The notes below the pieces were generated by a model that saw only the letters and a list, made by a program, of their open reading frames with translations, was not told the DNA's origin and did not search any database. From Dokdonella fugitiva (GTDB lineage: Bacteria > Pseudomonadota > Gammaproteobacteria > Xanthomonadales > Rhodanobacteraceae), in contig NZ_JACGXL010000002.1 of the NCBI RefSeq assembly GCF_014138265.1, positions 310,001 to 374,000 of the forward strand: a stretch of 64,000 nt of DNA, given 5' to 3'. Below are positions 50,326-63,723 of this stretch, one piece after another. Made by a program: the position numbers and the translations under genes. Each line of letters starts with the position of its first letter. The first letter of the stretch is position 1.

Positions 50326-51945
50326 ATGAGCGCTACCGTCGAAGACCTGTCGCAGGCCCGCCTCAGCCATCGCCTCGACGCCCGCCAGGCCGAAGTGCTC
50401 GACGCCGGCGCGCTCGCGTTCCTCGCCGACCTCCACGAGCGCTTCGATGCGCGCCGACGCGCACTGCTCGCGGCGCGCCGCGAACGCCAGGCGCGCTTCG
50501 ACGCGGGCGAGCTGCCGGATTTCCTGCCCGGGACGCGCGCGATCCGTGAAATGGACTGGCGCGTCGCGCCGATCCCCGCGGCGCTGCAGGACCGCCGCGT
50601 CGAAATCACCGGCCCGGTCGACCGCAAGATGATCATCAACGCGCTCAACTCGGGCGCGAACGTGTTCATGGCCGACTTCGAGGACTCGACCGCGCCGACG
50701 TTCGCCAATCTCGTCGACGGCCAGCTCAACCTGCGCGATGCGGTCGCCGGCACGATCGACTACCGCGCCGTCGACGGTCGTGCGTACGCGGTCGGTGCCG
50801 ATCCCGCCGTGCTCGTCGTGCGCCCACGCGGCTGGCATTTGCCCGAGCGCCACGTCGAAGTTCGCGGCAAGGCGATGTCCGGCGCGCTGTTCGACTTCGG
50901 CGTGTTCGCGTACCACAACGCGGTCGCGCTGCACGCGCGCGACCGCGGCCCGTATTTCTACCTCCCGAAGATGGAGAGTCATCGCGAGGCGGCCTTGTGG
51001 AACGACGTGATGGATCACGCCGAGGCCGTGCTCGGACTGCCGCAGGGCGCGATGAAGGCGACCGTGCTGATCGAGACCCTGCCGGCCGTGTTCGAGATGG
51101 ACGAGATCCTGCACGCGCTGCGCACGCGTGTCGCCGGCCTCAACTGCGGCCGCTGGGACTACATCTTCTCGTACCTCAAGACGCTGCGCGCGCATCGCGA
51201 TCGCGTGTTGCCCGAGCGCGGCCAGGTGCTCATGACCGTGCCGTTCCTGCGCCACTACTCGGAACTGCTGATCCGCACCTGCCACCGTCGCGGCGCGTTC
51301 GCGATGGGCGGCATGGCCGCGCAGATCCCGATCAACCACGACGCCGCGGCGAACGCTGCCGCGTTCGCGAAGGTGCGCGCGGACAAGTTGCGTGAGGTCA
51401 CCGCCGGACACGACGGTACCTGGGTCGCGCATCCCGCGCTCGTCGCGGTCGCGCGCGAGGTGTTCGACGCGCATATGCCGATGCCGAACCAGCTGCAGGT
51501 CACGCGCGACGACGTCGTCGCCGATCGCGACACGCTGCTCGCGCCGAGCCCGGGCACGATCACGCGTGCCGGCTTCGACGGCAACATCGAGATCTGCCTG
51601 CGCTACCTCGCCGCATGGATCGACGGCCAGGGCTGCGTGCCGATCCACCATCTCATGGAAGACGCCGCGACCGCGGAGATTTCTCGAGCGCAGCTGTGGC
51701 AATGGTTGCATCGCGCCGACGACGGCGTTTCCACGCCGCTCGCGTTCGACGACGGTGCGCCGATCGACTTCGCGGCGTTCGACGCGTCGCTCGCGACCGC
51801 GCGCGCGCTACTCGCCGCCACCGCGATGCCCGGCCAGGCGCGCGTCAGCGAAGCCGCGACCCTGCTCGCTCGCCTCACGCGCGCCGACGCGCTGGCCGAT
51901 TTCCTCACCCTCGAGGCGTACGAATACCTGTGCGATCGTCCCTGA
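50326..51945 (+). CDS. aceB: Malate synthase A
   Basis: Condenses glyoxylate and acetyl-CoA to malate, the second glyoxylate shunt step. It is 539 residues, typical of the A isoform. Motifs: [17 protein letters not shown] (catalytic region, 'D.EDs.aPtw'), [51 protein letters not shown] and [15 protein letters not shown] (malate synthase signature), then GGMAAQIPI and THPDLV-like [14 protein letters not shown] seen as [15 protein letters not shown]. aceA starts 71 bases downstream. The divergent LysR gene is the likely regulator. Confidence 0.97.
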
Positions 51946-52016
51946 TCGCATGGCAAAAGCGGCCGTCCAGGGCCGCATATCTCACCACAAGCCCCTTCCA
52001 CTGCTACGAGGTTGCC

Positions 52017-53318
<1,302 letters not shown>

Positions 53319-53793: not shown

Positions 53794-54849
53794 GTGTCCA
53801 GCGACAAGGCAGAGTCGACCAGCGAACTCGCGCACGCGCTCTCCGCGACCCCGCTGCGCCCATCCCTGTTGCCCCGTCAACTGTCGGAAGACGAGTTCGC
53901 GCTGTTCGCCCGCGTCGGCGTCGCGCGCGAGGTGAGCCAGGGCGAGGTGATCTTCCGCCGCGGCGAGCTCGGCCGCAGCATGTTCATCGTCGAGGCCGGC
54001 CAGGTGCAGCTCGAATTCGGCGACGGCCTGCCCGACAAGATCATCGGCGCGCGCGAGTTCTTCGGCGAACTCGTGTTGTTCATCGGCAGCCATACGCGCG
54101 TGGCCAACGCGGTCGCATTCGGCCCCACGACCCTGCGTATCGTCGACCAGGAAACCTTCGAACACCTCATCTCGACGGAACCGCGTTTGCTCGCCCAGTT
54201 CATGCGCCGCTCGTTCTCCTACCTCGTCGCGAGCGAGCAGCAGCTCATCCAGAGCCTGAAGCGCCGCAACGAGGACCTCATGGTCACGCTCGATTCGCTG
54301 CGCCAGACGCGCACCCAGCTGTCCACCGCGCAACGCCTCGTGCAGACCGACGAACTCTCGGGCTTGTGCAACCGGCGCGGCCTCTACATGTTCCTCGAGC
54401 GGCTCGGCGAGCACCGCCTGCCCGGTACCGTGCTCGCGCTGCTGCTCGTCGATCTCGACCGCTTCAAGCAGATCAACGACCGCTGCGGCCACCTCGTCGG
54501 CGACCAGGTGTTGCGCGCGATCGCCGAAGAGGTGCAGAACGCAGCCTCGTCGGTCGATGTCCCCTGTCGTCTCGGCGGCGACGAATTCGCGCTGCTCATG
54601 CAGGTCACCGGCGAAGAGGAGCTCTGCGCGCGCGCGACCCAGATCATCGGCGCGGTACGCGCACTGCGCTTCCCGGGTTGCAAGGACGGCCTCGCGATCA
54701 CCGTCAGCGTCGGTGGCAGCCTGTGCGGCGAGCATGCGGACTGGGCGGTCTGGTACAGCGACGCCGATGCGGCGTTGTACGAAGCAAAGGGCCGCGGCGG
54801 CGACGGTTATCATGTGGCGATACCCGGCAGCGTGCGCTGCGTGGTCTGA
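53794..54849 (+). CDS. Diguanylate cyclase with N-terminal cyclic-nucleotide-binding domain
   Basis: A 351-residue cytoplasmic protein with a GTG start after GGGGGAGG. Residues 30-145 are a CRP-like cNMP-binding fold: SQGEVIFRRGELGRSMFIVEAGQVQLEFGD, then REFFGELVLFIGSHTRVANAVAFG (phosphate-binding cassette region). A helix follows (ASEQQLIQSLKRRNEDLMVTLDSLRQTRTQL). The GGDEF domain (about 185-345) has DELSGLCNRRGLYMFL, LLVDLDRFKQINDRCGHLVGDQVL and CRLGGDEFALLMQ, so the active site is intact. The inhibitory I-site RxxD upstream of GGDEF reads SSVD here, without the Arg, so feedback inhibition is probably absent. It lies 179 bases before a nucleotide cyclase gene that could supply its ligand. 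Confidence 0.92.
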   Translation: MSSDKAESTSELAHALSATPLRPSLLPRQLSEDEFALFARVGVAREVSQGEVIFRRGELGRSMFIVEAGQVQLEFGDGLPDKIIGAREFFGELVLFIGSHTRVANAVAFGPTTLRIVDQETFEHLISTEPRLLAQFMRRSFSYLVASEQQLIQSLKRRNEDLMVTLDSLRQTRTQLSTAQRLVQTDELSGLCNRRGLYMFLERLGEHRLPGTVLALLLVDLDRFKQINDRCGHLVGDQVLRAIAEEVQNAASSVDVPCRLGGDEFALLMQVTGEEELCARATQIIGAVRALRFPGCKDGLAITVSVGGSLCGEHADWAVWYSDADAALYEAKGRGGDGYHVAIPGSVRCVV

Positions 54850-55028: not shown

Positions 55029-57686
55029 ATGAACGCATTGCTTCATCCGTCAGCGCCGATACCGCAAGCCACGGCAATTCCGCTGTTGCGCACGCTCGTG
55101 CTCTGCGACCTCGTCGATTCGACCGCACTGACCCAGCGACTCGGTGACCAGCACGCCGCCGAGCTGTTCCGCAAGCACGACCGCCTCGCGCGCGCGCTGC
55201 TGCCGCTGCACGGCGGTCGCGAGATCGACAAGACCGACGGCTTCCTGCTCATGTTCGAGCGGCCGGTGCAGGCGGTCGCGTTCGCGATCGATTACCAGCG
55301 CGCTTTGCGCGAGCTCAACGCGACGGAAGGCAGCATGCTCGCCGCGCGCGTGGGCATCCATGTCGGAGACGTCGTCGCCTGGGACAACAGCGCCGAGGAC
55401 ATCGCGCGCGGCGCCAAGCCGATCGAGGTGGAAGGCCTCGTCAAGCCGATCACCTCACGTCTGACGCAACTCGCACTGCCGAACCAGATCCTGCTTTCCG
55501 GCGTCGCGCATGCGCTCGCCCATCGCGCGCAGGGCGAACTCGGCGAGCGCCTCGAAACCCTCCGCTGGCGCACGCACGGGCGCTACCGCTTCAAGGGCGT
55601 ACCCGATCCGATTCCCGTCTTCGAAGTCGGCGACGAGGGGTTCGCGCCGCTGAAAGCGCCGCCGTGGTCGGGCAAGGCGCACCGCGAAGTGCCGTTCTGG
55701 CGCCGTCCGGCGACGCTCGGTATCGAGGTGGCCGCACTGCTGCTGATGCTCGCGATACCCGCTTGGTATCTGCTCCGGCCCGCCCCGGCGATCGCGTTCG
55801 CCAATCGCGACTGGGTCGTCGTCGGCGATCTCAAGAACCTGACCGGCGACACGCGTTTCGACGATTCGATCCAGACCGCGTTCCGTATCGGCCTCGAGCA
55901 ATCCCGTTACGTCAACGTGCTGTCGAATCTCAAGGCGCGCGAGACGATCGGGTTGATGCGGAAGGACCCCGAGAAGACGTCGATCGACCGCGTCGTCGGC
56001 GCGGAGATCGCCTTGCGCGACGGCGCGCGCGCGTTGATATTGCCGACCGTCGCGGAAATCGGCGGTCGCGTCCGGGTCACCGCCGAGGTCGTCGATCCGA
56101 CCACGCAGACGACGGTGTACTCGGAATCGGCGGACGGTCTGGGCGTCAACTCCGTGTTGCCTTCGCTCGATACCGTATCCCAGAAGCTGCGCGTTCGCCT
56201 CGGCGAAGCACTCGCCACGGTGGCCAAGGAGACCCGGCCGCTCGCGAACGTGGCGACGGCGAACCTGGAGGCGCTGCGCGCGTACTCGCTCGCGATCGAT
56301 GCCTATGTGGGATATCGCTACAAGGATGCGTTGCCACTGTTCGAGCAGGCGATCAAGCTCGATGCGGATTTCACGCTGGCCAGGATCGGCATGGCGCGAG
56401 TGCTGTTCCTGATGGACCGGAACCAGGACGCGTCCGAGCAGCTGAAGCAGGCCGCCGCGAAAAGCGAGCGATTGTCGCCGCGCGATTCACTCTATCTGGA
56501 TGCCTGGAGCGCCTCGTTGGCGACGCCATCGGCTTCCCTGCAGAAATGGAAGGTATTGGCCGAACTGTATCCGGACTTCTTCGCCGCCACGGGATCGTAC
56601 GCGTACTTCCTCTGGCTGTCCGGCGGATCGTACGACGCCGCGATCGCTGCCGCGAAGAAGTCCGCCACGGAACAGAATCCCCATCGCGGCGTCAGCCATC
56701 AGTTGCTGGGCACGTTGTATCTGGGGACCGAACGATTCGGCGAAGCGGTCGACAGCTTCGAAAGGGCCAACGCCGCCGGTGTGTTGACGCAGAACGAATA
56801 CTACGCGGCGACATATGCGGCCCAGCGCAAGTTCGCCAAGGCGAAGGAATTGCTCGACAAGGGTTCGGCCCCCGGCCAGGACTCCGAAAAGTCCTGGGTC
56901 CGCGTCGCCATGGCCATCGATCAAGGGAAGCTCGACGACGTCATGCACGTTGCCGCGCCAGCGGGGGCCGCATCCGCTCCGTCGCGCGTGGATCGCCGAT
57001 CCCTCGGTGTCGACCTCGCGCTGCGAACCGCCGTCGGTTCATCCGATCCGCTGCTCGCCAAGGCGCTGACGAGCTATCGCGACGAGGGTGCCGCGTTGTT
57101 GAAGGCGTCCTCCGACGACGTCGATCGCGCCGATACCGAGTTCGAGTTGCTGCTCGCGGACTACCTGATGGCGCAGCGCGCGGAATCGGGCCAGGCACAC
57201 GCGCCTGCCCGCGCCAATCTCGCGGAAGCCGGCAAGGGCACCCATGCGGCGCTGGATCAGATGCTCGCGATCGCGCAGGCCGAGGAGCTGCGTGCGAACA
57301 ATCGACCCGACCAGGCCATCGAGCTGCTTCGATCGAAGGCGACGGGCGACGAGCTCTACCTTTCGCACGCCGCCCTGCTCGATGCGTACATCGCAGCGAA
57401 AAAGAACACGGAGGCGCTGGCCGAAGCCCGGTGGCTGACGGCGCACCGCGGTCGGGCCTACGCCGAGTACAACAGCCAGCGCGAACTGACTGCGTTGAAC
57501 GTGCTGCGCTCGAACCTCGCGCTGCTGTCGATCGCCGAGCTCACCGTCGCCACGGACAAGGATGCGGCGAGAACCGGCCTGGACGCCTTCCGACAGGCAT
57601 GGCCGGATGCCGAGCGCGTGCCGACGCTCGCCAAGCGGATGCAGAACGTACGGTCAGTGCTGGGCGGCGGCGGCCAAGCGCACTAA
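55029..57686 (+). CDS. Cassette 1: class III nucleotide cyclase with TM helix and TPRs (peptide-modification-associated)
   Basis: An 885-residue protein. The cyclase homology domain (residues 20-190) has RTLVLCDLVDSTALTQRLGDQHAAELF (first metal Asp in CDLVDST), GGREIDKTDGFLLMFERPVQAVAFA (second Asp in TDGF), AARVGIHVGDVV and AHRAQGEL...THGRYRFKGV. The usual K-[TS]-x-GD-G reads DKTDG, so the base-contacting Lys is displaced. A TM helix lies at about 224-250. A TolB/FlgO-like region follows (FANRDWVVVGDLKNLTGDTRFDDSIQTAFRIGLEQSRYVNVL), then TPRs (400-880). I recall a TIGRFAM 'putative peptide modification system cyclase' (TIGR04510) with this make-up; not looked up. Its stop overlaps that of the precursor peptide gene on the other strand. 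Confidence 0.85.
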   Translation: MNALLHPSAPIPQATAIPLLRTLVLCDLVDSTALTQRLGDQHAAELFRKHDRLARALLPLHGGREIDKTDGFLLMFERPVQAVAFAIDYQRALRELNATEGSMLAARVGIHVGDVVAWDNSAEDIARGAKPIEVEGLVKPITSRLTQLALPNQILLSGVAHALAHRAQGELGERLETLRWRTHGRYRFKGVPDPIPVFEVGDEGFAPLKAPPWSGKAHREVPFWRRPATLGIEVAALLLMLAIPAWYLLRPAPAIAFANRDWVVVGDLKNLTGDTRFDDSIQTAFRIGLEQSRYVNVLSNLKARETIGLMRKDPEKTSIDRVVGAEIALRDGARALILPTVAEIGGRVRVTAEVVDPTTQTTVYSESADGLGVNSVLPSLDTVSQKLRVRLGEALATVAKETRPLANVATANLEALRAYSLAIDAYVGYRYKDALPLFEQAIKLDADFTLARIGMARVLFLMDRNQDASEQLKQAAAKSERLSPRDSLYLDAWSASLATPSASLQKWKVLAELYPDFFAATGSYAYFLWLSGGSYDAAIAAAKKSATEQNPHRGVSHQLLGTLYLGTERFGEAVDSFERANAAGVLTQNEYYAATYAAQRKFAKAKELLDKGSAPGQDSEKSWVRVAMAIDQGKLDDVMHVAAPAGAASAPSRVDRRSLGVDLALRTAVGSSDPLLAKALTSYRDEGAALLKASSDDVDRADTEFELLLADYLMAQRAESGQAHAPARANLAEAGKGTHAALDQMLAIAQAEELRANNRPDQAIELLRSKATGDELYLSHAALLDAYIAAKKNTEALAEARWLTAHRGRAYAEYNSQRELTALNVLRSNLALLSIAELTVATDKDAARTGLDAFRQAWPDAERVPTLAKRMQNVRSVLGGGGQAH

Positions 57687-57973
57687 CTCCGGCTGCCGTA
57701 GTCGAGACGCAGATTGGGGATGATCATCTTGTCCACGCACTGGACGGCGCTGTCCCCCAGCTCTTTCATCGCGGACGAGAACTTGGCTTTTTCGGCCAAT
57801 TTCAGCGGCGCGAGGCAGGCCGCCCGGAGGTTGACGACGGTCTCATGGGGGATGCCCAGTTCGACCAGAGCCGCGGCCGGCTTCTCCTCGAAACGGGCGC
57901 GAAACCCGTCGTTGCTCGCCAGTTCCCGCAACAGCTTGATGGCCTGTTCGGTCGTGAGTGTGGCGTCGCTCAT
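57683..57973 (-). CDS. Cassette 1: NHLP-related RiPP precursor peptide
   Basis: A 96-residue peptide with a strong AAGGGGAA ribosome site. The N-terminal half is leader-like: TTEQAIKLLRELASNDGFRARFEEKPAAALVELGI. It matches the nitrile-hydratase-like leader pattern ('LL.kl..D..Fr..f...Pa.aL.e.Gi') and is shared with the peptide at 62178. The C-terminal half (HETVVNLRAACLAPLKLAEK to MIIPNLRLDYGSRS) is unrelated to the second peptide and holds two Cys. No GG or GA cleavage site is obvious, so the core cannot be marked. I recall TIGR04509 for this family; unverified. Its TAG stop (57683-57685) overlaps the cyclase TAA. A minus-strand promoter TTGCAT-17-TAAGTT is visible upstream. Confidence 0.8.
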   Translation of the reverse strand: MSDATLTTEQAIKLLRELASNDGFRARFEEKPAAALVELGIPHETVVNLRAACLAPLKLAEKAKFSSAMKELGDSAVQCVDKMIIPNLRLDYGSRS

Positions 57974-58022
57974 GGATTTCCCCTTCTGATGGCCGATGGC
58001 CGATACGGACGCGGTTTAACCG

Positions 58023-58059
58023 CGCGCCAAACTTAGTCATGCTGTTACTGAAATGCAAT
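58023..58059 (-). promoter_or_regulatory. Candidate promoter of the cassette 1 precursor peptide
   Basis: Read on the minus strand, TTGCAT and TAAGTT are separated by 17 bases in an AT-richer patch between about 58059 and 58023, roughly 55-85 bases upstream of the peptide start. The corresponding region of cassette 2 is only 88 bases long and contains a CTAAGCTTAG palindrome at 62475-62484 instead. Confidence 0.45.
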
Positions 58060-58237
58060 GCGAATTCCATGCCGATCGGCGGAGGCGGCCGCTCCCGGTT
58101 CCGCGGGCGGAGCGGCGGCACGTCCGTCGCGAAGGAGCGCGGTGCCCCATGCTCGACCCGGCCGCCGCCGGTGAACGGCAAGGTTCGGAGCGATTCTCCT
58201 CCGCACGTCCCCCTTTCCCGTTGATGCAAGGAAGTCG

Positions 58238-59398
58238 ATGCGCCTGCGCCGCTGTGCCCATTTGCTGATCGAGCCCCGCGAGAGGCTCGAATTCGATCTC
58301 GCCCTGCTCGCCGTCGGCGGCGACGGACTGCGCAAGCCGGTCGACCTGGTCGCCCTCGCCCCGCACCTCGCGGGCGAAGTCGTCGTGTCGCCCGCCGAAG
58401 CGGCGGTCGCGATGGCGGCATCGCCGACCGATTGGCGCCCGTACGACGCGTTCGAAGCGGACGCGGCGGTCGTCGAGGCTTTGCGCGCCAAGGCGTTGTT
58501 CGTCGTCGAAGGCAGCGACATGGACGCGCGCGACCGGCTGGTGCGCGTCACGCATTGGCGCGCCGTCGCCGCTGCAAACCACTACGCATCACGCTGGAGC
58601 GACATCGACACCGAAGCGGCGCAGGAACGCCTGGCCGAAATCACCCAGGACAGCCTGCTCGATCGCCTCGGGCCTTCGCCTCCGCCCGTGCGCGAGCGGA
58701 CCCCGCCATCGCAGCGCCGGAAGCTGACGGTTCCGGCACCGAGCGCGATCGATGCGCTGCTCGACCACCGCGTCACCTGCCGAAACTTCGACCGCACGCA
58801 CGCGCTGACGCGGGAGCAGTTGTCGGCCGTGCTATATCGCGCCTACGGCGCCCGTGTCGTGCACGACTATGCGCCCGGAGTCCAGCTGCTGAAGAAGGGA
58901 GTTCCTTCGGCGGGCGCGCTCCACCCGACCGAAGCCTACCTGCTGGTCCAGCACGTCGACGGCGTCGATCCCGGCTTGTACCACTATCACCCGGTCGACC
59001 ATGCGCTCGAACCCATCCGCGCGATGGACGCGGAGGAGGCGGCGTCGACCGCACGCCGCTTCGTCGCGGCGCAAGGCTACTTCGTCGATGCCCACGTGAT
59101 GGTCATGCCGACCACGCGCTTCCGCCGCACCTTCTGGAAATACCGCAATCACGCCAAGGCGTACCGCGCCGTGATCCTCGACGTCGGTCACCTGTCGCAG
59201 ACGATGTATCTCGCCGCCACCGAACTCGGCCTCGGCGCCTTCATCACCGCGGCGATCAACGAGGTCGACATCGAGCAGGCGTTCGGCCTCGATCCGCTCG
59301 AGGAAGGCCCGCTCGCCGTGACCGGATTCGGCGTGCGCGGAGCGGAACGCAACGAAATCGAGTTCGACCCGCTCAACGCGATCTGGCCGGCATCCTGA
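58238..59398 (+). CDS. Cassette 1: SagB-like flavin dehydrogenase (putative peptide maturation dehydrogenase)
   Basis: A 386-residue protein starting MRLRRCAHLLIEPRERLEFDL, with an AAGGAAG ribosome site. The C-terminal two thirds are a nitroreductase/SagB fold: LLDHRVTCRNFDRTHALTREQLSAVLYRAYG (about residues 170-200, 'l..R.s.R.f...pls...Ls.lL..a.G'), KKGVPSAGALHPTEAYLLVQHVDGVDPGLYHYHPVDHAL, and FWKYRNHAKAYRAVILDVGHLSQTMYLAATELGLGAFITAAI, ending DPLEEGPLAVTGFG. SagB-type enzymes use FMN to oxidise azolines to azoles, but no YcaO cyclodehydratase is nearby, so the substrate bond is open. I recall TIGR04511 'putative peptide maturation dehydrogenase'; unverified. The 264 bases upstream are shared with the divergent precursor gene. 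Confidence 0.85.
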   Translation: MRLRRCAHLLIEPRERLEFDLALLAVGGDGLRKPVDLVALAPHLAGEVVVSPAEAAVAMAASPTDWRPYDAFEADAAVVEALRAKALFVVEGSDMDARDRLVRVTHWRAVAAANHYASRWSDIDTEAAQERLAEITQDSLLDRLGPSPPPVRERTPPSQRRKLTVPAPSAIDALLDHRVTCRNFDRTHALTREQLSAVLYRAYGARVVHDYAPGVQLLKKGVPSAGALHPTEAYLLVQHVDGVDPGLYHYHPVDHALEPIRAMDAEEAASTARRFVAAQGYFVDAHVMVMPTTRFRRTFWKYRNHAKAYRAVILDVGHLSQTMYLAATELGLGAFITAAINEVDIEQAFGLDPLEEGPLAVTGFGVRGAERNEIEFDPLNAIWPAS

Positions 59399-59540
59399 CC
59401 GGGCCGGCCTAGCCGGCACGGGAGGGCTGGCGCGAGCGGCGGCAACGAAACGCCTTGTAATCGTTTTCGGGCGTATCGCTGGCCATCGTCGGGTATCCGG
59501 CGCAAAATGGTGCGAATGCAGCAAAGGGGCGGCAAGCAGG

Positions 59541-62192
59541 GTGACTGCAGACGAATCAGCGCGGATCGACGGCATGACCGGCAGCACGACGTCGGTGCTG
59601 CGCACGCTCGTCCTCAGCGACCTCGTCGATTCGACCGCACTCGTCGAACGCCTCGGTGACCAGCGGGCGGCCGACCTCATCCGCAAGCACGATCGTCTCG
59701 CGCGCTCGCTCATGCAGCAGCACGGTGGCCGCGAGATCGACAAGACCGACGGTTTCCTGCTCGTGTTCGAGCGGCCGATCCAGGCGGTCGCCTACGCACT
59801 CGATTACCAGCGCGAACTCAGCGAACTCGGCACGCAGGAGAAGACCGAACTCGCCGCGCGCATCGGCATCCACGTCGGTGACATCGTCGTCTGGGACAAC
59901 AGCGCCGACGACGTCCGCCGCGGCGCCAAGCAGACCGAGGTCGAAGGCCTCGTCAAGCCGATCGCGGCGCGCCTCATGGGTCTCGCGCTGCCGCGCCAGA
60001 TCCTGATGTCGGGCACCGCCTACGACATCGCGCACCGTGCGCAAGGCGAGCTCGGCGAAAAGCTCGCGCGGGTGCGCTGGCGCACGCACGGGCGCTACCG
60101 TTTCAAGGGCGTGCCGGACCTCGTGCCCGTGTTCGAGGTCGGCGAGGAAGGCTACGCACCGTTGCGCGCACCGGCCTGGTCCGGCAAGGCGTACCGCGAG
60201 ATGCCCGTCTGGCGTCGCCCGGTCGCGATCATCGGTGAAGCGCTCGCATTGGTGGTACTGCTCGCGGTTCCTGCGTGGTACCTGTTCAAGCCCGCGCCGG
60301 CGATCGCGTTCGCCAACCGCGACTGGGTCGTTGTCGGCGACCTCAGGAATCTGACCGGACACAAGGTTTTCGACGACTCGCTGGAAACGGCTTTCCGCAT
60401 CGGGCTCGAGCAGTCGCGCTACGTCAATGTCATGCCGGAACTGCAGGTCCGCGATGCGTTGAAACGCATGGAGCGCGATCCGTCGGCGACCGCGGTCGAT
60501 CGTGCGATTGGCTCCGAGGTCGCGCTGCGCGAAGGGGCACGTGCGGTCGTTCTGCCCACGGTCGCGGAAGTGGGTGGTCGCGTCCGATTGACGGCGGAGA
60601 TCGTCGATCCGAACACGCAGACGTCGGTCTACAGCGACTCGGTCGAAGGCGTCGGCGAGGCCGCGGTACTGCCGGCGATGGACGACCTATTGAAGAAGAT
60701 GCGCGGCCGTCTCGGCGAATCGATCGCGAGCATCGGTGAGACCAGCGCGCCGTTGGCCGAGGTGACGACGCGCAACTTCGATGCGCTGAAGGCGTACTCG
60801 CTCGGACTGCAGGCCGTCGCCGGAGGACGCGGAGGCGAGGCACTGACGCTGTTCAACCAGGCGATTTCGCTCGATCCGCAGTTCGCGCAGGCCTATCTCG
60901 GCCTCGCCAACGTCTACTACAGCACCAGCCAGAAGGCGAAGGCACACGAAGCCGTGACGAATGCGGTGCGCGACCTCAATCACCTGAGCGTTCGCGAGCG
61001 ACTGATCGCGCAGGGATACGCTGCGTTGTTCGGAACTCCGGACGCAATGCGCGAGAAATGGTCGATGCTCACCAGGCTGTATCCCGACGATCTGGTAGGT
61101 ACGCAGAACCTCGCGATGGTGCTATGGCAATACGACAACGACCTCGAGCAGGCCGCGCAGTACTTCCAGAAAGTGACCGCCAGCCAACATCCACGCCGCG
61201 GTTACGCATGGTTGTACCTAGGTGACATACAGGTCGCCAGGGGCGACTTCACGGCGGCGGCAAAGAGTTACGCGACCGCGCGCCAGGTGGGTTCGCCGCA
61301 GAACTACCTCGATCCCGTCAATCTCCCCATCGCACAGCGCGACGCTTCCGGCGCGACCGCCGCACTCGCGAAGGAAGACACCCATCACTACCCCTTCTTC
61401 GACGTGGAAGCGCAGCTTCGTAAGGCGGCCATCGAGGTCGGACGAGGGCATCTCGCGAGCGCGCGAGCAGCAGCGGACGCGGCAGTAGCGCTCGCCGACC
61501 ATGCGAAACTCGAGTCGTCGCGGCAGCGCGCGCGCCTCGCGGGCCTGGCGATCGCGTTCGCGCAAGGTGATGCCAAAGCCGGCGAGAGCCTCAAGGCATT
61601 TGTCGCCGACGAGCTGCGCCGCATGAAGAACGCGCCGGCGACCTACGATTTCAGCAGCTACGTTCATCTCGGCGTGGCCTCAATGCTCGCACTGCGCCAC
61701 GGCGATCCCGCACTGGCGGAGCGCGCGCTGGCGGCGTTGACGCCGGCTGCAGAGGCGAGCGGCTACGACAGCCTGCGGCAACTGACCCGCATAGCGGCCT
61801 GCGAAGCGCGCAGCAGCGCCGATGCGGCAGGTGCCGTCGCCTGCTTGGAGGCGCTGCCTGTGGAAAAGGCCTACTACCAGAAGCGGGTGGCAATGCTGCA
61901 CGCATACCGCGCAGCCGGCCGCGACGAGCAGGCGCTTGCGACGGCGCGCTGGTTGACCGAGCACCGCGGCCTCGCGACGGCTGATTTCGTCGGCGAGTTC
62001 GCGAGCCAGGTGCCGAACCTGCTAGCCAGCGACGCGGCCCTCGTGGACGTCGCGGAACTCGAGCTGAAAGCGGGGCACGCCGACACCGCGAGGAATGCAC
62101 TCGCCGAGTTCAAATCCGCTTGGAACTCCGCCGAGGGCGACCTCCCGCTGTCGCGGAAGGCCGCACGCCTCGAAGCGTCACTTGTTCAATAG
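59541..62192 (+). CDS. Cassette 2: class III nucleotide cyclase with TM helix and TPRs (peptide-modification-associated)
   Basis: An 883-residue paralogue of the protein at 55029 with the same order of parts: cyclase domain (VLRTLVLSDLVDSTALVERLGDQRAADLI, GGREIDKTDGFLLVFERPIQAVAYA, AARIGIHVGDIVVWDNSADD), TM helix at about 230-252 (LALVVLLAVPAWYLF), TolB/FlgO-like part (AIAFANRDWVVVGDLRNLTGHKVFDDSLETAFRIGLEQSRYVNVM) and TPRs. The GTG start at 59541 puts LRTL at residue 20, exactly as in the first copy; an ATG at 59574 is the alternative. Similarity is very high over the first ~400 residues and falls in the TPR part. Its TAG lies inside the 3' end of the opposite precursor gene (15-base overlap). 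Confidence 0.85.
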   Translation: MTADESARIDGMTGSTTSVLRTLVLSDLVDSTALVERLGDQRAADLIRKHDRLARSLMQQHGGREIDKTDGFLLVFERPIQAVAYALDYQRELSELGTQEKTELAARIGIHVGDIVVWDNSADDVRRGAKQTEVEGLVKPIAARLMGLALPRQILMSGTAYDIAHRAQGELGEKLARVRWRTHGRYRFKGVPDLVPVFEVGEEGYAPLRAPAWSGKAYREMPVWRRPVAIIGEALALVVLLAVPAWYLFKPAPAIAFANRDWVVVGDLRNLTGHKVFDDSLETAFRIGLEQSRYVNVMPELQVRDALKRMERDPSATAVDRAIGSEVALREGARAVVLPTVAEVGGRVRLTAEIVDPNTQTSVYSDSVEGVGEAAVLPAMDDLLKKMRGRLGESIASIGETSAPLAEVTTRNFDALKAYSLGLQAVAGGRGGEALTLFNQAISLDPQFAQAYLGLANVYYSTSQKAKAHEAVTNAVRDLNHLSVRERLIAQGYAALFGTPDAMREKWSMLTRLYPDDLVGTQNLAMVLWQYDNDLEQAAQYFQKVTASQHPRRGYAWLYLGDIQVARGDFTAAAKSYATARQVGSPQNYLDPVNLPIAQRDASGATAALAKEDTHHYPFFDVEAQLRKAAIEVGRGHLASARAAADAAVALADHAKLESSRQRARLAGLAIAFAQGDAKAGESLKAFVADELRRMKNAPATYDFSSYVHLGVASMLALRHGDPALAERALAALTPAAEASGYDSLRQLTRIAACEARSSADAAGAVACLEALPVEKAYYQKRVAMLHAYRAAGRDEQALATARWLTEHRGLATADFVGEFASQVPNLLASDAALVDVAELELKAGHADTARNALAEFKSAWNSAEGDLPLSRKAARLEASLVQ

Positions 62193-62432
62193 GAACCAAC
62201 CCATGCCGACGGCGCCATCTACCTTGGCGCGGATGGCGGTGCGCTGCGACTGCAGCGCTTCCTTCGAGGGAAGACTGCGCACCGCCGGCACCGCGGCCGG
62301 ATCCACCTGCACGCCGTGTTCGGCGAGCGCTGCCGCCGGATCGCCGAGGAATTTCTCGCGGAACTGATCGTCCGTGCCGAGGCGATCGAGCAACTGGTCG
62401 AGCTGCTCGGACGATGCGATGCCCTTGCCCAT
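62178..62432 (-). CDS. Cassette 2: NHLP-related RiPP precursor peptide
   Basis: An 84-residue peptide from MGKGIASSEQLDQLLDRLGTD, with a strong GAAAGGGGAAGGGGA ribosome site. The leader part LLDRLGTDDQFREKFLGDP, then AAALAEHGVQVDP, aligns without gaps to LLRELASNDGFRARFEEKP-AAALVELGI of the peptide at 57683. The C-terminal part (AVRSLPSKEALQSQRTAIRA to GAVGMGWFLLNK) has no Cys and no similarity to the first peptide. A hydrophobic VGMGWFLL patch at the very end could be core. It overlaps the 3' end of the cyclase gene and diverges from the dehydrogenase gene 88 bases away. Confidence 0.8.
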   Translation of the reverse strand: MGKGIASSEQLDQLLDRLGTDDQFREKFLGDPAAALAEHGVQVDPAAVPAVRSLPSKEALQSQRTAIRAKVDGAVGMGWFLLNK

Positions 62433-62520
62433 GGTCCCCTTCCCCTTTCGTGTGTGACGGAATCTGAAGCCCGGCTAAGCTTAGGGCGTCGCGCCGGACA
62501 ACTCCAGCGCCTGCACCCGG

Positions 62521-63723
62521 ATGTCCACGATGGAGAGCGATTCGCGCCTGCGCCGCTGCAGTGTCCTGTTCGTCGAACCGCGCGAGACGCTCGACCTCGA
62601 TCTTGCCGGACTGCTGGGCGGCCGTGACGTGGTGGCCTCGCATTGCCGCTGGGTCGCGCTGGCACCTCATCTCGACACCGAGGTCGACATCGACGACGAA
62701 GAGCTGGCCGTGCTCGGCCGGGTGGGAGAAACGCCGTGGCGTCGATATGAAGACCTCGCATCGACCGCCTCGCGCGCCGTCCTTGCGCGCCTGCTCGACT
62801 GCGGCCTGCTGATCAGCGATGCGCCCGCGCGCGAAGGCATGCGGCGACGCGACGAGATCGTGCGCGGAACGCATTGGCGCTCCCTATCGGCAGTCGCGCA
62901 CATGTTCAGCCGTTGGCGCGGCACCGACGTCGCGGACGATGCACGCATCACGCGTGACCGCACCCTCGTCGATCTCGTCGACGAGTACGGGCTGCCGCCG
63001 CCGCACCGCGTCCAATGCGGCGAAGCGCGCATCGACCTGCCGGATTGCGAGACGACGGCGCTCGATGGCCTGCTGCGTTCGCGTACGACCTGTCGCAATT
63101 TCGATCCTAGCAGCGAGCTCGCGCCGGCGGATTTCGCCGCGGTGCTGAAGCGCGTCTTCGCGGCGCACGCCGTCAGCGAGCCGCTCGCCGGTGTGCAGGT
63201 CATCAAGCGCGCCAACCCTTCCGGCGGCGGGCTGCACCCGCTGGAGGCATACCTGCTGCTGCGTGGCGTGCAAGGGGTTGCCGCCGGCTTGTATCACTAC
63301 GATGTCGTCGGTCACGCGCTCGAACCGCTTGCCTTGCTCGACGCCGCCACCGCGACGGCACTCGCCGAACGCTTCGTCGCAGGCCAGAAGTACCTGTCCG
63401 GCGCGCACGCGCTGGTCGTGATCGCGGCACGCTTCCAGCGAACCTTCTGGAAATACCGCAACCACGCAAAGGCTTATCGCGTGCTTCTGCTCGAAGCAGG
63501 CCATGTCTCGCAGAACATCTATCTGGCCGCGACCGAGCTCGGGCTCGGCGCGTTCATCACAGCGGCGATCAACGAGGGCGACATCGAGCAGGCGTTCGGC
63601 CTCGATCCCCTCGAGCAGGGACCGATCGCGGTTTGTGGCTTGGGGATCCGCGCACGGCGCTGCGACGTGACCGAATTCGATCCGCTCGGCGTCGTGTGGG
63701 ACGAATCCGGGACGCGGCGCTGA
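62521..63723 (+). CDS. Cassette 2: SagB-like flavin dehydrogenase (putative peptide maturation dehydrogenase)
   Basis: A 400-residue paralogue of the protein at 58238. It starts MSTMESDSRLRRCSVLFVEPRETLDLDL (ATG at 62521 or 62530; no strong ribosome site). Shared blocks: LLRSRTTCRNFDPSSELAPADFAAVLKRVF, KRANPSGGGLHPLEAYLLLRGVQGVAAGLYHYDVVGHALEPL, FWKYRNHAKAYRVLLLEAGHVSQNIYLAATELGLGAFITAAINEGDIEQAFGLDPLEQGPIAVCGLG. The N-terminal ~160 residues (a likely peptide-binding or winged-helix part, THWRSLSAVAHMFSRWRG) are more diverged than the flavin domain, in line with two different precursor peptides. Confidence 0.85.
   Translation: MSTMESDSRLRRCSVLFVEPRETLDLDLAGLLGGRDVVASHCRWVALAPHLDTEVDIDDEELAVLGRVGETPWRRYEDLASTASRAVLARLLDCGLLISDAPAREGMRRRDEIVRGTHWRSLSAVAHMFSRWRGTDVADDARITRDRTLVDLVDEYGLPPPHRVQCGEARIDLPDCETTALDGLLRSRTTCRNFDPSSELAPADFAAVLKRVFAAHAVSEPLAGVQVIKRANPSGGGLHPLEAYLLLRGVQGVAAGLYHYDVVGHALEPLALLDAATATALAERFVAGQKYLSGAHALVVIAARFQRTFWKYRNHAKAYRVLLLEAGHVSQNIYLAATELGLGAFITAAINEGDIEQAFGLDPLEQGPIAVCGLGIRARRCDVTEFDPLGVVWDESGTRR

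Follow-up and report, generated by a model that had tools for sequence, protein, structure and literature searches.

The window examined here, a stretch of 64,000 nucleotides of Dokdonella fugitiva DNA (contig NZ_JACGXL010000002.1, positions 310,001–374,000 of the forward strand), carries two consecutive cassettes, each consisting of a receptor-type class III cyclase gene, a precursor peptide gene on the opposite strand, and a gene for a SagB-type dehydrogenase of the flavin mononucleotide (FMN) class. Cassette 1 comprises a cyclase of 885 amino acids (aa) (55029–57686, +; TIGR04510, 884.8 bits), a 96-aa peptide with an NHLP-type leader and a variable C-terminal tail (57683–57973, −; TIGR04509, 53.7 bits), and a 386-aa dehydrogenase presumed to modify the peptide (58238–59398, +; TIGR04511, 450.4 bits; PF00881). 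Cassette 2 comprises an 883-aa cyclase with a GTG start (59541–62192, +; 823.3 bits), an 84-aa peptide ending in the tail GMGWFLLNK (62178–62432, −; 63.7 bits), and a 400-aa dehydrogenase (62521–63723, +; 479.1 bits). All six genes exceed the curated NCBIfam cut-offs (400, 34, and 240 bits for TIGR04510, TIGR04509, and TIGR04511, respectively), and the genome holds two matches over cut-off to each model, all of them in the window. Peptide 2 also matches NF038399, the Os17-type NHLP model (46.9 bits, cut-off 40), and is the only one of the two to do so over the cut-off; TIGR03793 gave a match to peptide 2 only, at 21.5 bits, under its cut-off of 50.9.

Between the two cassettes, identity amounts to 74% in the cyclase domain, 63% in the TolB-like part, 30% in the TPR part, and 49% in the dehydrogenase, and the two peptides share 41% over a single 41-aa stretch; judged by these values, the cassettes are paralogues. 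An earlier note on this DNA had described two tandem triplets, read them as a duplication, and placed each peptide gene opposite the cyclase stop. Its six open reading frames (ORFs) agree with ours in position and strand, the peptide genes overlap the 3′ ends of the cyclase genes by 4 bases (cassette 1) and 15 bases (cassette 2), the pairwise identities bear out the duplication, and the three families it had proposed were recovered for every gene, peptides included, in a hidden Markov model (HMM) search.

That note overlooked a further gene that is usually part of the locus. One gene for a 351-aa protein with a cyclic nucleotide (cNMP)-binding and a GGDEF domain (53794..54849, +; PF00027, PF00990), a homologue of XC_0249, precedes both window cassettes. 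We followed this gene in two locus sets: a homologue lies directly before the cyclase, on the same strand, in 72 of 82 loci and in 68 of 74 non-actinobacterial loci with species names. Four of the six exceptions in the latter set (L121, L167, L192, and L193) are cut by contig ends, and several of the ten in the former (L045, L055, L059, L083, and L088) have kilobases of upstream sequence and yet no such gene, so its presence is usual rather than universal.

The cyclase family has a characterized member in Xanthomonas campestris. An 886-aa protein, XC_0250 combines a class III cyclase domain with TPRs; synthesis of cyclic GMP (cGMP) requires it, and the cyclase domain itself forms cGMP. The linked XC_0249 binds cGMP and in response makes more cyclic di-GMP (c-di-GMP); mutants in either gene show less biofilm and less virulence to plants, and XC_0250 regulates biofilm formation and gene expression (PMC3770947). 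The TPR domain is called uncharacterized there and still in a 2019 review (PMC8042644), and the available portions of the two articles do not state the input of the pathway. The link from XC_0250 to TIGR04510 was drawn from residue positions and not from the sequence of the X. campestris protein: all six XC_0250 residues discussed in PMC3770947 fit the TIGR04510 protein of G190, a genome taken as Xanthomonas, at an offset of 7, and the next best offset fits four of the six. The best PDB match of the window cNMP-GGDEF protein is 5h5o_A; all seven published cGMP-contact residues of XC_0249 fit 5h5o at a single offset of 27, and 5h5o is 96.7% identical over 123 aa to an X. hortorum protein encoded before a TIGR04510 cyclase, a peptide, and a dehydrogenase, that is, the whole triplet. 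The window resembles the XC_0250/XC_0249 pair in cyclase architecture, residue positions, and the adjacent cNMP-GGDEF gene, and differs from it in that its cNMP domain is 43% identical to 5h5o (over 123 aa). The guanine-contact residue Glu146 is kept in all 141 compared matches, and Asn145 is replaced by Ser in the window protein. For the order as a whole, these loci very probably belong to the XC_0249/XC_0250 pathway; that the window proteins are themselves specific for cGMP appears less assured.

Cyclase 1 combines a cyclase domain (residues ∼18–203), a hydrophobic, putatively transmembrane segment (∼230–248; ∼223–241 in cyclase 2), and a C-terminal sensor half with TPRs detected by Pfam (55794..57683, +), which is the counterpart of the part exchanged in relatives (see below). 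These are the features of an XC_0250-type cyclase: a class III domain that keeps the metal-binding residues, a membrane segment, and a half with TPRs. Both metal-binding Asp residues and the transition-state Arg, whose roles we take to be those of class III cyclases generally, are invariant in 82 of 82 aligned cyclases. A hydrophobic segment lies at residues 180–300 in 79 of 80 cyclases (median start 224), and its N-terminal side is the more positive one in all 79; most cyclases (71 of 80) have one such segment and one of the 80 has none. The window's cyclase 1 has a single segment with the positive side towards the N terminus. Assuming the usual positive-side charge rule, the cyclase domain is predicted to be cytoplasmic and the C-terminal half to lie outside, because the N-terminal side is the more positive. 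For the comparison of metal ligands with XC_0250, residues 27, 40, and 70 of the window protein encoded at 55029–57686 were singled out; residue 27, which is the same in all 82 cyclases, is what we take to be the canonical first metal Asp. D41 of XC_0250, a metal ligand according to PMC3770947, aligns with the Asp of an RLGD motif at residue 40. Elsewhere in the same genome, a 1092-aa ORF (L302:2256–5534; G000:C1, ∼1052755–1056033) has the same type of cyclase domain (TIGR04510 HMM positions 7–203, 169 bits, below cut-off) followed by a protein kinase domain and TPRs, and is, by its domain content, a further class III cyclase with a different sensor.

Across 299 genomes of the order Xanthomonadales, scored at the NCBIfam cut-offs, each of the three families was found in 81, and all three were present in 79 of the 83 genomes with any member. 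The exact order of cyclase (+), peptide (−), and dehydrogenase (+) recurs at 54 of 88 cyclase matches; most others are variants with two peptides, an extra cyclase, or tandem cassettes, and at six of the 88 the peptide is present and the dehydrogenase inverted. Because this order or its variants recur around the 88 cyclases, the arrangement is not a product of chance. Among 108 peptide matches over cut-off, 92 lie opposite a cyclase within 3 kb, one lies on the same strand, and 15 have no cyclase that near. We regard the gene content and co-occurrence of the triad as practically certain; the survey confirms the co-occurrence in Xanthomonadales that the earlier note had put forward, and its remark that a class III cyclase beside a locus for a ribosomally synthesized and post-translationally modified peptide (RiPP) is unusual also holds. 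By genus, the cyclase exceeds the cut-off in 29 of 35 genomes taken as Xanthomonas (one of the 29 in pieces) and in 90 of 91 taken as Stenotrophomonas. The distribution of TIGR04511 is narrow, with matches over cut-off in 5 of 299 genomes of a phylum-wide sample, all within the order, and in 1 of 246 genomes of the class sampled around a Streptomyces centre, namely that centre. Five Streptomyces loci and one Kribbella locus carry dehydrogenases 59–66% identical to a Xanthomonas-group query together with one to five TIGR04509-like peptides on the opposite strand.

In related loci, sensor half, peptide, and dehydrogenase are replaced together. Between genomes G175 and G243, DNA identity is 97% over a stretch of 7.77 kb that ends near cyclase codon 269; the next ∼3.6 kb are unalignable, and the following 6.64 kb are 99% identical. 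The corresponding protein differences are 0.00 in the cyclase domain, 0.72/0.81 in the TPR parts, and 0.75/0.61 in the dehydrogenase, which is inverted in G175. We mapped 135 loci (119 unique) and compared 132 pairs with ≥85% DNA identity over the cyclase domain. Homology continues through the dehydrogenase in 37 pairs and breaks within the sensor half in 92, and three could not be placed. The left break falls at residues 260–299, just past the membrane segment, in 42 of the 92 pairs and further on, to ∼560, in 50; homology resumes in 78 of the 92, mostly within the dehydrogenase or shortly after it, the median point being 606 bases ahead of the end of its ORF (5–95% range −879 to +1473). From these positions, the exchanged block comprises the sensor half, the peptide, and the dehydrogenase, the last either whole or with its N-terminal part only, and we consider its exchange among related loci established with very little doubt.

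The same contrast appears in average divergence: in the 55 of 82 loci with one of each gene, protein differences average 0.13 (isocitrate lyase), 0.34 (cyclase domain), and 0.67/0.74 (TPR parts, the most variable cyclase segments). Grouped by backbone, 11 Xanthomonas loci hold three sensor alleles, a group of eight loci holds four, and two groups of four hold four and three; a group of six Stenotrophomonas loci and two groups of three each hold a single allele. Plain divergence as the cause of the lost homology was considered and is unsupported, because flank identities are alike whether the sensor is the same or different. This was seen in our second set of loci (80 loci of genera taken as Xanthomonas or Stenotrophomonas, 63 with a single cassette, 169 pairs), with 85.1 vs 86.0% upstream and 87.6 vs 84.3% downstream; the downstream flank was alignable in 71 of 71 same-sensor and 96 of 98 different-sensor pairs. 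Base composition also sets the block apart, with a G+C content of 0.519 in the G175 block (L075) against ∼0.65 in its flanks, which hints at a foreign origin; over 62 loci, the block has the lower G+C in 47.

The evidence for block exchange comes from relatives, chiefly in other families of the order, and not from the window, as comparison with two congeners shows. Cassette 1 has same-place counterparts in both, with 47–49% identity in the sensor and 76–81% in the cyclase domain. Cassette 2 has a counterpart in one (G110), with 65% and 84%, respectively, and a peptide tail GMGWFLLK for the window's GMGWFLLNK; the other congener (G279) has a single cyclase over cut-off. Within the genus, then, cassette 1 is variable and cassette 2 is not.

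The peptide tail varies along with the sensor. From a first set of 162 loci, we retained 115 with a single cassette, 101 of them non-redundant, and 121 close pairs (cyclase domain distance <0.10, GGDEF distance <0.15); the second set shares some species with the species-named loci. Over the 121 pairs, tail distance correlates with TPR2 (rho 0.95), TPR1 (0.92), dehydrogenase (0.88), and TolB-like part (0.79), and far less with the cyclase domain (0.13), the cNMP domain (0.28), and GGDEF (0.30). Sensor and tail are both the same in 58 pairs and both different in 58, with one pair sharing only the sensor and four only the tail. The second set gave rho values of 0.83 for TPR2, 0.85 for the dehydrogenase, and 0.24 for the cyclase domain, and counts of 70, 88, 1, and 10 in the same order. 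Where the dehydrogenase is nearly constant, sensor and tail still correlate (0.79 over 43 pairs; 0.81 over 36 pairs). Partial correlations are higher between sensor and tail (0.72; second set 0.38) and between dehydrogenase and leader (0.51; 0.47), and low between dehydrogenase and tail (0.03; 0.13) and between TPR2 and leader (0.14; 0.10). A pairing of tail with sensor and of leader with dehydrogenase is therefore suggestive but not robust, as the split weakens without the S. maltophilia group and the dehydrogenase–tail correlation persists at constant sensor. Taken over all pairs of the 55 loci, partial correlations with the tail are 0.42 for TPR1 (the maximum), 0.41 for TPR2 and both dehydrogenase parts, and 0.23 for the cyclase domain; the strong co-variation arises from close pairs and not from the all-pairs comparison.

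Natural recombinants are suggestive in the same sense. L153 and L159 have dehydrogenases 0.01 apart, with sensors differing by 0.40/0.52 and tails by 0.46. Conversely, eight second-set pairs keep the sensor (0.18–0.19, 0.28–0.30) and have exchanged the dehydrogenase (0.53–0.54, 0.45), and their tails remain fairly similar (0.25–0.39), with leader distances of 0.33–0.39; since four loci set against two make up these pairs, they perhaps represent one event.

Several loci depart from the common arrangement. G278 (L111) has a cyclase over cut-off and a cNMP-GGDEF gene, with no peptide or dehydrogenase over cut-off in the genome, possibly a listener without a signal of its own or a loss. Nine TIGR04509 matches, one with an in-frame TAG, surround a single cyclase at L088 (G237), and five near-identical peptides stand in tandem at L059 (G091). 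At L060 (9857–11974) and L081 (10047–11984), and also in G892, a second TIGR04510 match without a cyclase domain lies just downstream of the dehydrogenase and retains only the membrane segment and the TolB-like and TPR parts; this free sensor half is perhaps a displaced allele or a decoy. Divergent dehydrogenases (∼286–313 bits) lie on the peptide strand, opposite the cyclase, at L048, L053, L066, L075, L079, L095, and L110, with tails such as GWVVFCR and VVVVFTI.

By fold, the dehydrogenase is a nitroreductase of the SagB branch, its PDB profile matches include CyaGox, BmdC, and McbC, and its invariant WKYR aligns with WKY of CyaGox and KY of BmdC; the Lys-Tyr pair is catalytic in azoline oxidases. 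It resembles the dehydrogenases of thiazole/oxazole-modified microcins (TOMMs), such as SagB, McbC, and CyaGox, in fold family and in the WKY motif aligned with CyaGox. Unlike in those systems, no YcaO was found in any of the nine Xanthomonadales genomes tested, the window's own included, and Cys occurs in only 35% of 127 representative tails, on which grounds azole formation was rejected. Cys, Ser, or Thr is present in 99% of the tails, and five of the six actinobacterial genomes with the peptide/dehydrogenase pair have a YcaO somewhere in the genome. Among the same 127 peptides the leader is conserved, and Phe or Leu followed by Asp, Glu, or Asn occurs within the last 26 residues in 81%, compared with 42% in shuffles. 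In a preprint (PMC12636437), a nitroreductase domain without YcaO converts Phe to Z-dehydrophenylalanine in an NHLP-leader peptide, the Phe adjoining an Asp that is hydroxylated by the fused MNIO enzyme. Given this precedent and the enrichment in the tails, desaturation in the peptide tail is our preferred chemistry, by analogy and tentatively. The PflD/PosD MNIO–nitroreductase clusters of that preprint share with our loci the NHLP leader and a nitroreductase acting without YcaO on a peptide, and window peptide 2 matches the Os17 NHLP model; there, the nitroreductase is fused to an MNIO and accompanied by a HEXXH enzyme and transporters, whereas the dehydrogenase here is stand-alone. In the N-terminal part of the dehydrogenase, no sequence match to a RiPP recognition element (PqqD-like winged helix) was found in Pfam or PDB; Pfam searches with five such parts gave one weak HHA match, and PDB one weak unrelated match.

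For the wider neighbourhood, we assigned Pfam families to one member each of the 22 most widespread gene clusters around 80 oriented loci (of 82). Among the named clusters are isocitrate lyase (62 loci), malate synthase (65), and a LysR regulator (61); in the window an isocitrate lyase gene (51615–53318) lies directly upstream, and this glyoxylate-shunt neighbourhood is conserved among the loci. Downstream are Mg-chelatase-like, P-II, acyl-CoA dehydrogenase, carboxylase, BMFP, spermidine synthase, TetR, cytochrome c, decarboxylase, acyltransferase, and DUF3182 genes. Other clusters are a Na/H exchanger (6 loci) and a 168-aa gene without family (7 loci). An S9 prolyl-oligopeptidase gene occurs in 10 of 80 loci (e.g. 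L039:4680–6818), on the opposite strand downstream of the dehydrogenase, and is the only protease candidate near the peptide in these loci.

We propose that each cassette encodes a peptide signal, the enzyme that modifies it, and a guanylate cyclase that serves as its receptor and passes the signal on through cGMP. We hold this reading at about even strength, and equally so its core element, recognition of the peptide as a ligand by the sensor half. The SagB-type dehydrogenase would bind the peptide through the NHLP-type leader and oxidize the C-terminal tail, most likely to a dehydro-amino acid if the published enzyme is a guide. The tail would then be exported and sensed by the extracytoplasmic TolB-like/TPR half of the cyclase, altering cGMP synthesis by the cytoplasmic domain, and cGMP would act on the adjoining cNMP-GGDEF protein to change c-di-GMP. 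Sensor half, peptide, and dehydrogenase would form a single polymorphic unit, inherited and swapped as a whole while the output stays conserved, from which it would follow, as in pherotype loci, that cells respond to their own peptide type; the window organism may have two such channels beside one cNMP-GGDEF gene. The proposal builds on gene content, co-occurrence, the link to the XC_0249/XC_0250 pathway, block exchange among related loci, and sensor–tail co-variation, all observed here, and on published cGMP synthesis and cGMP-stimulated c-di-GMP synthesis in a relative; we infer the peptide's role as ligand, its chemistry, its export, the topology, and selection on the block for specificity. 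In the fuller picture, a peptide-hormone system, a membrane receptor guanylate cyclase would read a ribosomal peptide after its modification, cGMP would feed a diguanylate cyclase that it activates, and polymorphism of the locus would serve self-recognition in the genera taken as Xanthomonas and Stenotrophomonas; this picture falls somewhat short of an even chance.

A number of observations weigh against this proposal. In the cyclase, the position of the catalytic Asn, as we take it to be, is Pro in 81 of 82 sequences, the essential Leu73 of XC_0250 is matched by Phe in the window cyclase, two hydrophobic segments are found in 8 of 80 cyclases, and the topology is predicted from hydropathy and charge only. 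Groups of six and eight Stenotrophomonas-type loci hold a single sensor allele. In raw rho, the dehydrogenase is as good a predictor of the tail as the sensor is (0.88 and 0.85), and it remains correlated with the tail where the sensor is nearly constant (0.69, 0.75); with the dehydrogenase constant, the cyclase domain also correlates with the tail (0.29 and 0.53). Discordant pairs make up 5 of 121 and 11 of 169, among them L191/L198, in which the sensor differs (0.62, 0.71) and the tail little (0.23). Without the S. maltophilia group the partial correlations become 0.40 for sensor–tail, 0.20 for leader–dehydrogenase, 0.27 for dehydrogenase–tail, and 0.22 for TPR2–leader; the pairs share ancestry and are not independent, and linkage of one block alone could produce co-variation. 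Because none of the 22 neighbour clusters is a transporter, protease, or further modifying enzyme present as a general neighbour, delivery across the membrane is left unexplained. Finally, none of the six Streptomyces and Kribbella genomes with the peptide/dehydrogenase pair has a TIGR04510 match, so the pair is kept there without the receptor.

Three alternatives weigh most, each of which we consider unlikely: linkage within a recombination hot spot, a modified regulator that acts inside the cell, and an antimicrobial peptide with its immunity. In the first, proximity alone would make the genes co-vary and the cyclase would sense something unrelated; the contiguous block, its G+C below the flanks, the weakening of the partial correlations without one clade, and the dehydrogenase–tail correlation at constant sensor fit this view. 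The left breaks, however, are commonest just past the membrane segment; the tail is closer to the N-terminal part of the dehydrogenase than to TPR1 (in window coordinates), yet TPR1 has the stronger partial correlation with it (0.58 against 0.03); and recombinants with a constant dehydrogenase change the tail along with the sensor. A modified peptide that is never exported and works as a regulatory subunit or redox reporter, oxidized according to flavin or oxygen state and tuning the cyclase, would suit the lack of export machinery in the locus and the conserved leader, and work on Pseudomonas sp. Os17 cited by PMC12636437 found full-length NHLP precursor in lysates; against it, the co-varying part of the cyclase is not the cytoplasmic domain but lies beyond the predicted membrane segment.

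A narrow-spectrum bacteriocin, with the variable sensor serving as immunity or as a detector of rival peptides and cGMP as an alarm, has a similarly small probability. Block exchange and variable tails would suit toxin/immunity diversification as well, and G237 and G091 carry the peptide arrays of nine and five matches described above; against it, neither an exporter nor a separate immunity gene is a general neighbour, 68 of the 80 second-set loci have one peptide only, and the variable part forms one protein with a cyclase of a family in which the characterized member, XC_0250, controls biofilm formation and gene expression. The view of the earlier note, a three-gene RiPP biosynthetic cassette with the cyclase as part of the modification machinery, fits the NCBIfam model names and the fixed co-occurrence in the order, but we think it very improbable: since the six actinobacterial genomes keep the pair without TIGR04510 and the cyclase matches the guanylate cyclase XC_0250, the cyclase is probably not a biosynthetic enzyme.

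The signalling proposal has its closest parallels in pherotype loci. In ComQXP of Bacillus and agr of Staphylococcus, a variable block of modifying enzyme, peptide, and the sensor half of the receptor stands ahead of a conserved output. The loci related to the window likewise have a contiguous variable block of enzyme, peptide, and sensor ahead of a conserved output, and the putative signal, the enzyme, and the sensor half are exchanged together, which is what marks a pherotype locus. They differ from ComQXP and agr in that the output is a class III cyclase rather than a histidine kinase, the enzyme is a SagB-type flavoprotein, the hosts are Gram-negative, and signalling is deduced from genes; compared with pherotype loci as we know them, the receptor guanylate cyclase is the unusual part.

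Parts of this system were already known separately. TIGR04509, TIGR04510, and TIGR04511, to which all six window genes belong, are named in NCBIfam as a putative peptide modification system, under model names that mention neither a cGMP link, nor a fourth gene, nor block exchange, and the cyclase and its effector have been published. The main text of PMC3770947 contains no word beginning with peptide or operon, and in the open-access literature we found no paper that joins the peptide or dehydrogenase to XC_0250 or describes block exchange. What is new is that the locus is allele-like, with sensor half, peptide, and dehydrogenase replaced together.

Block exchange links the Xanthomonas cGMP pathway with the maturation triad and names a ligand candidate for its receptor. 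If the proposal is right, the peptide would supply the input that the XC_0250 pathway lacks so far, the locus would be a pherotype system that works through cGMP rather than a histidine kinase, and the product of a stand-alone SagB-type dehydrogenase would become directly testable. Peptide-based self-recognition would then be widespread in Xanthomonadales, and a peptide-sensing guanylate cyclase would add a further type to the known bacterial receptors.

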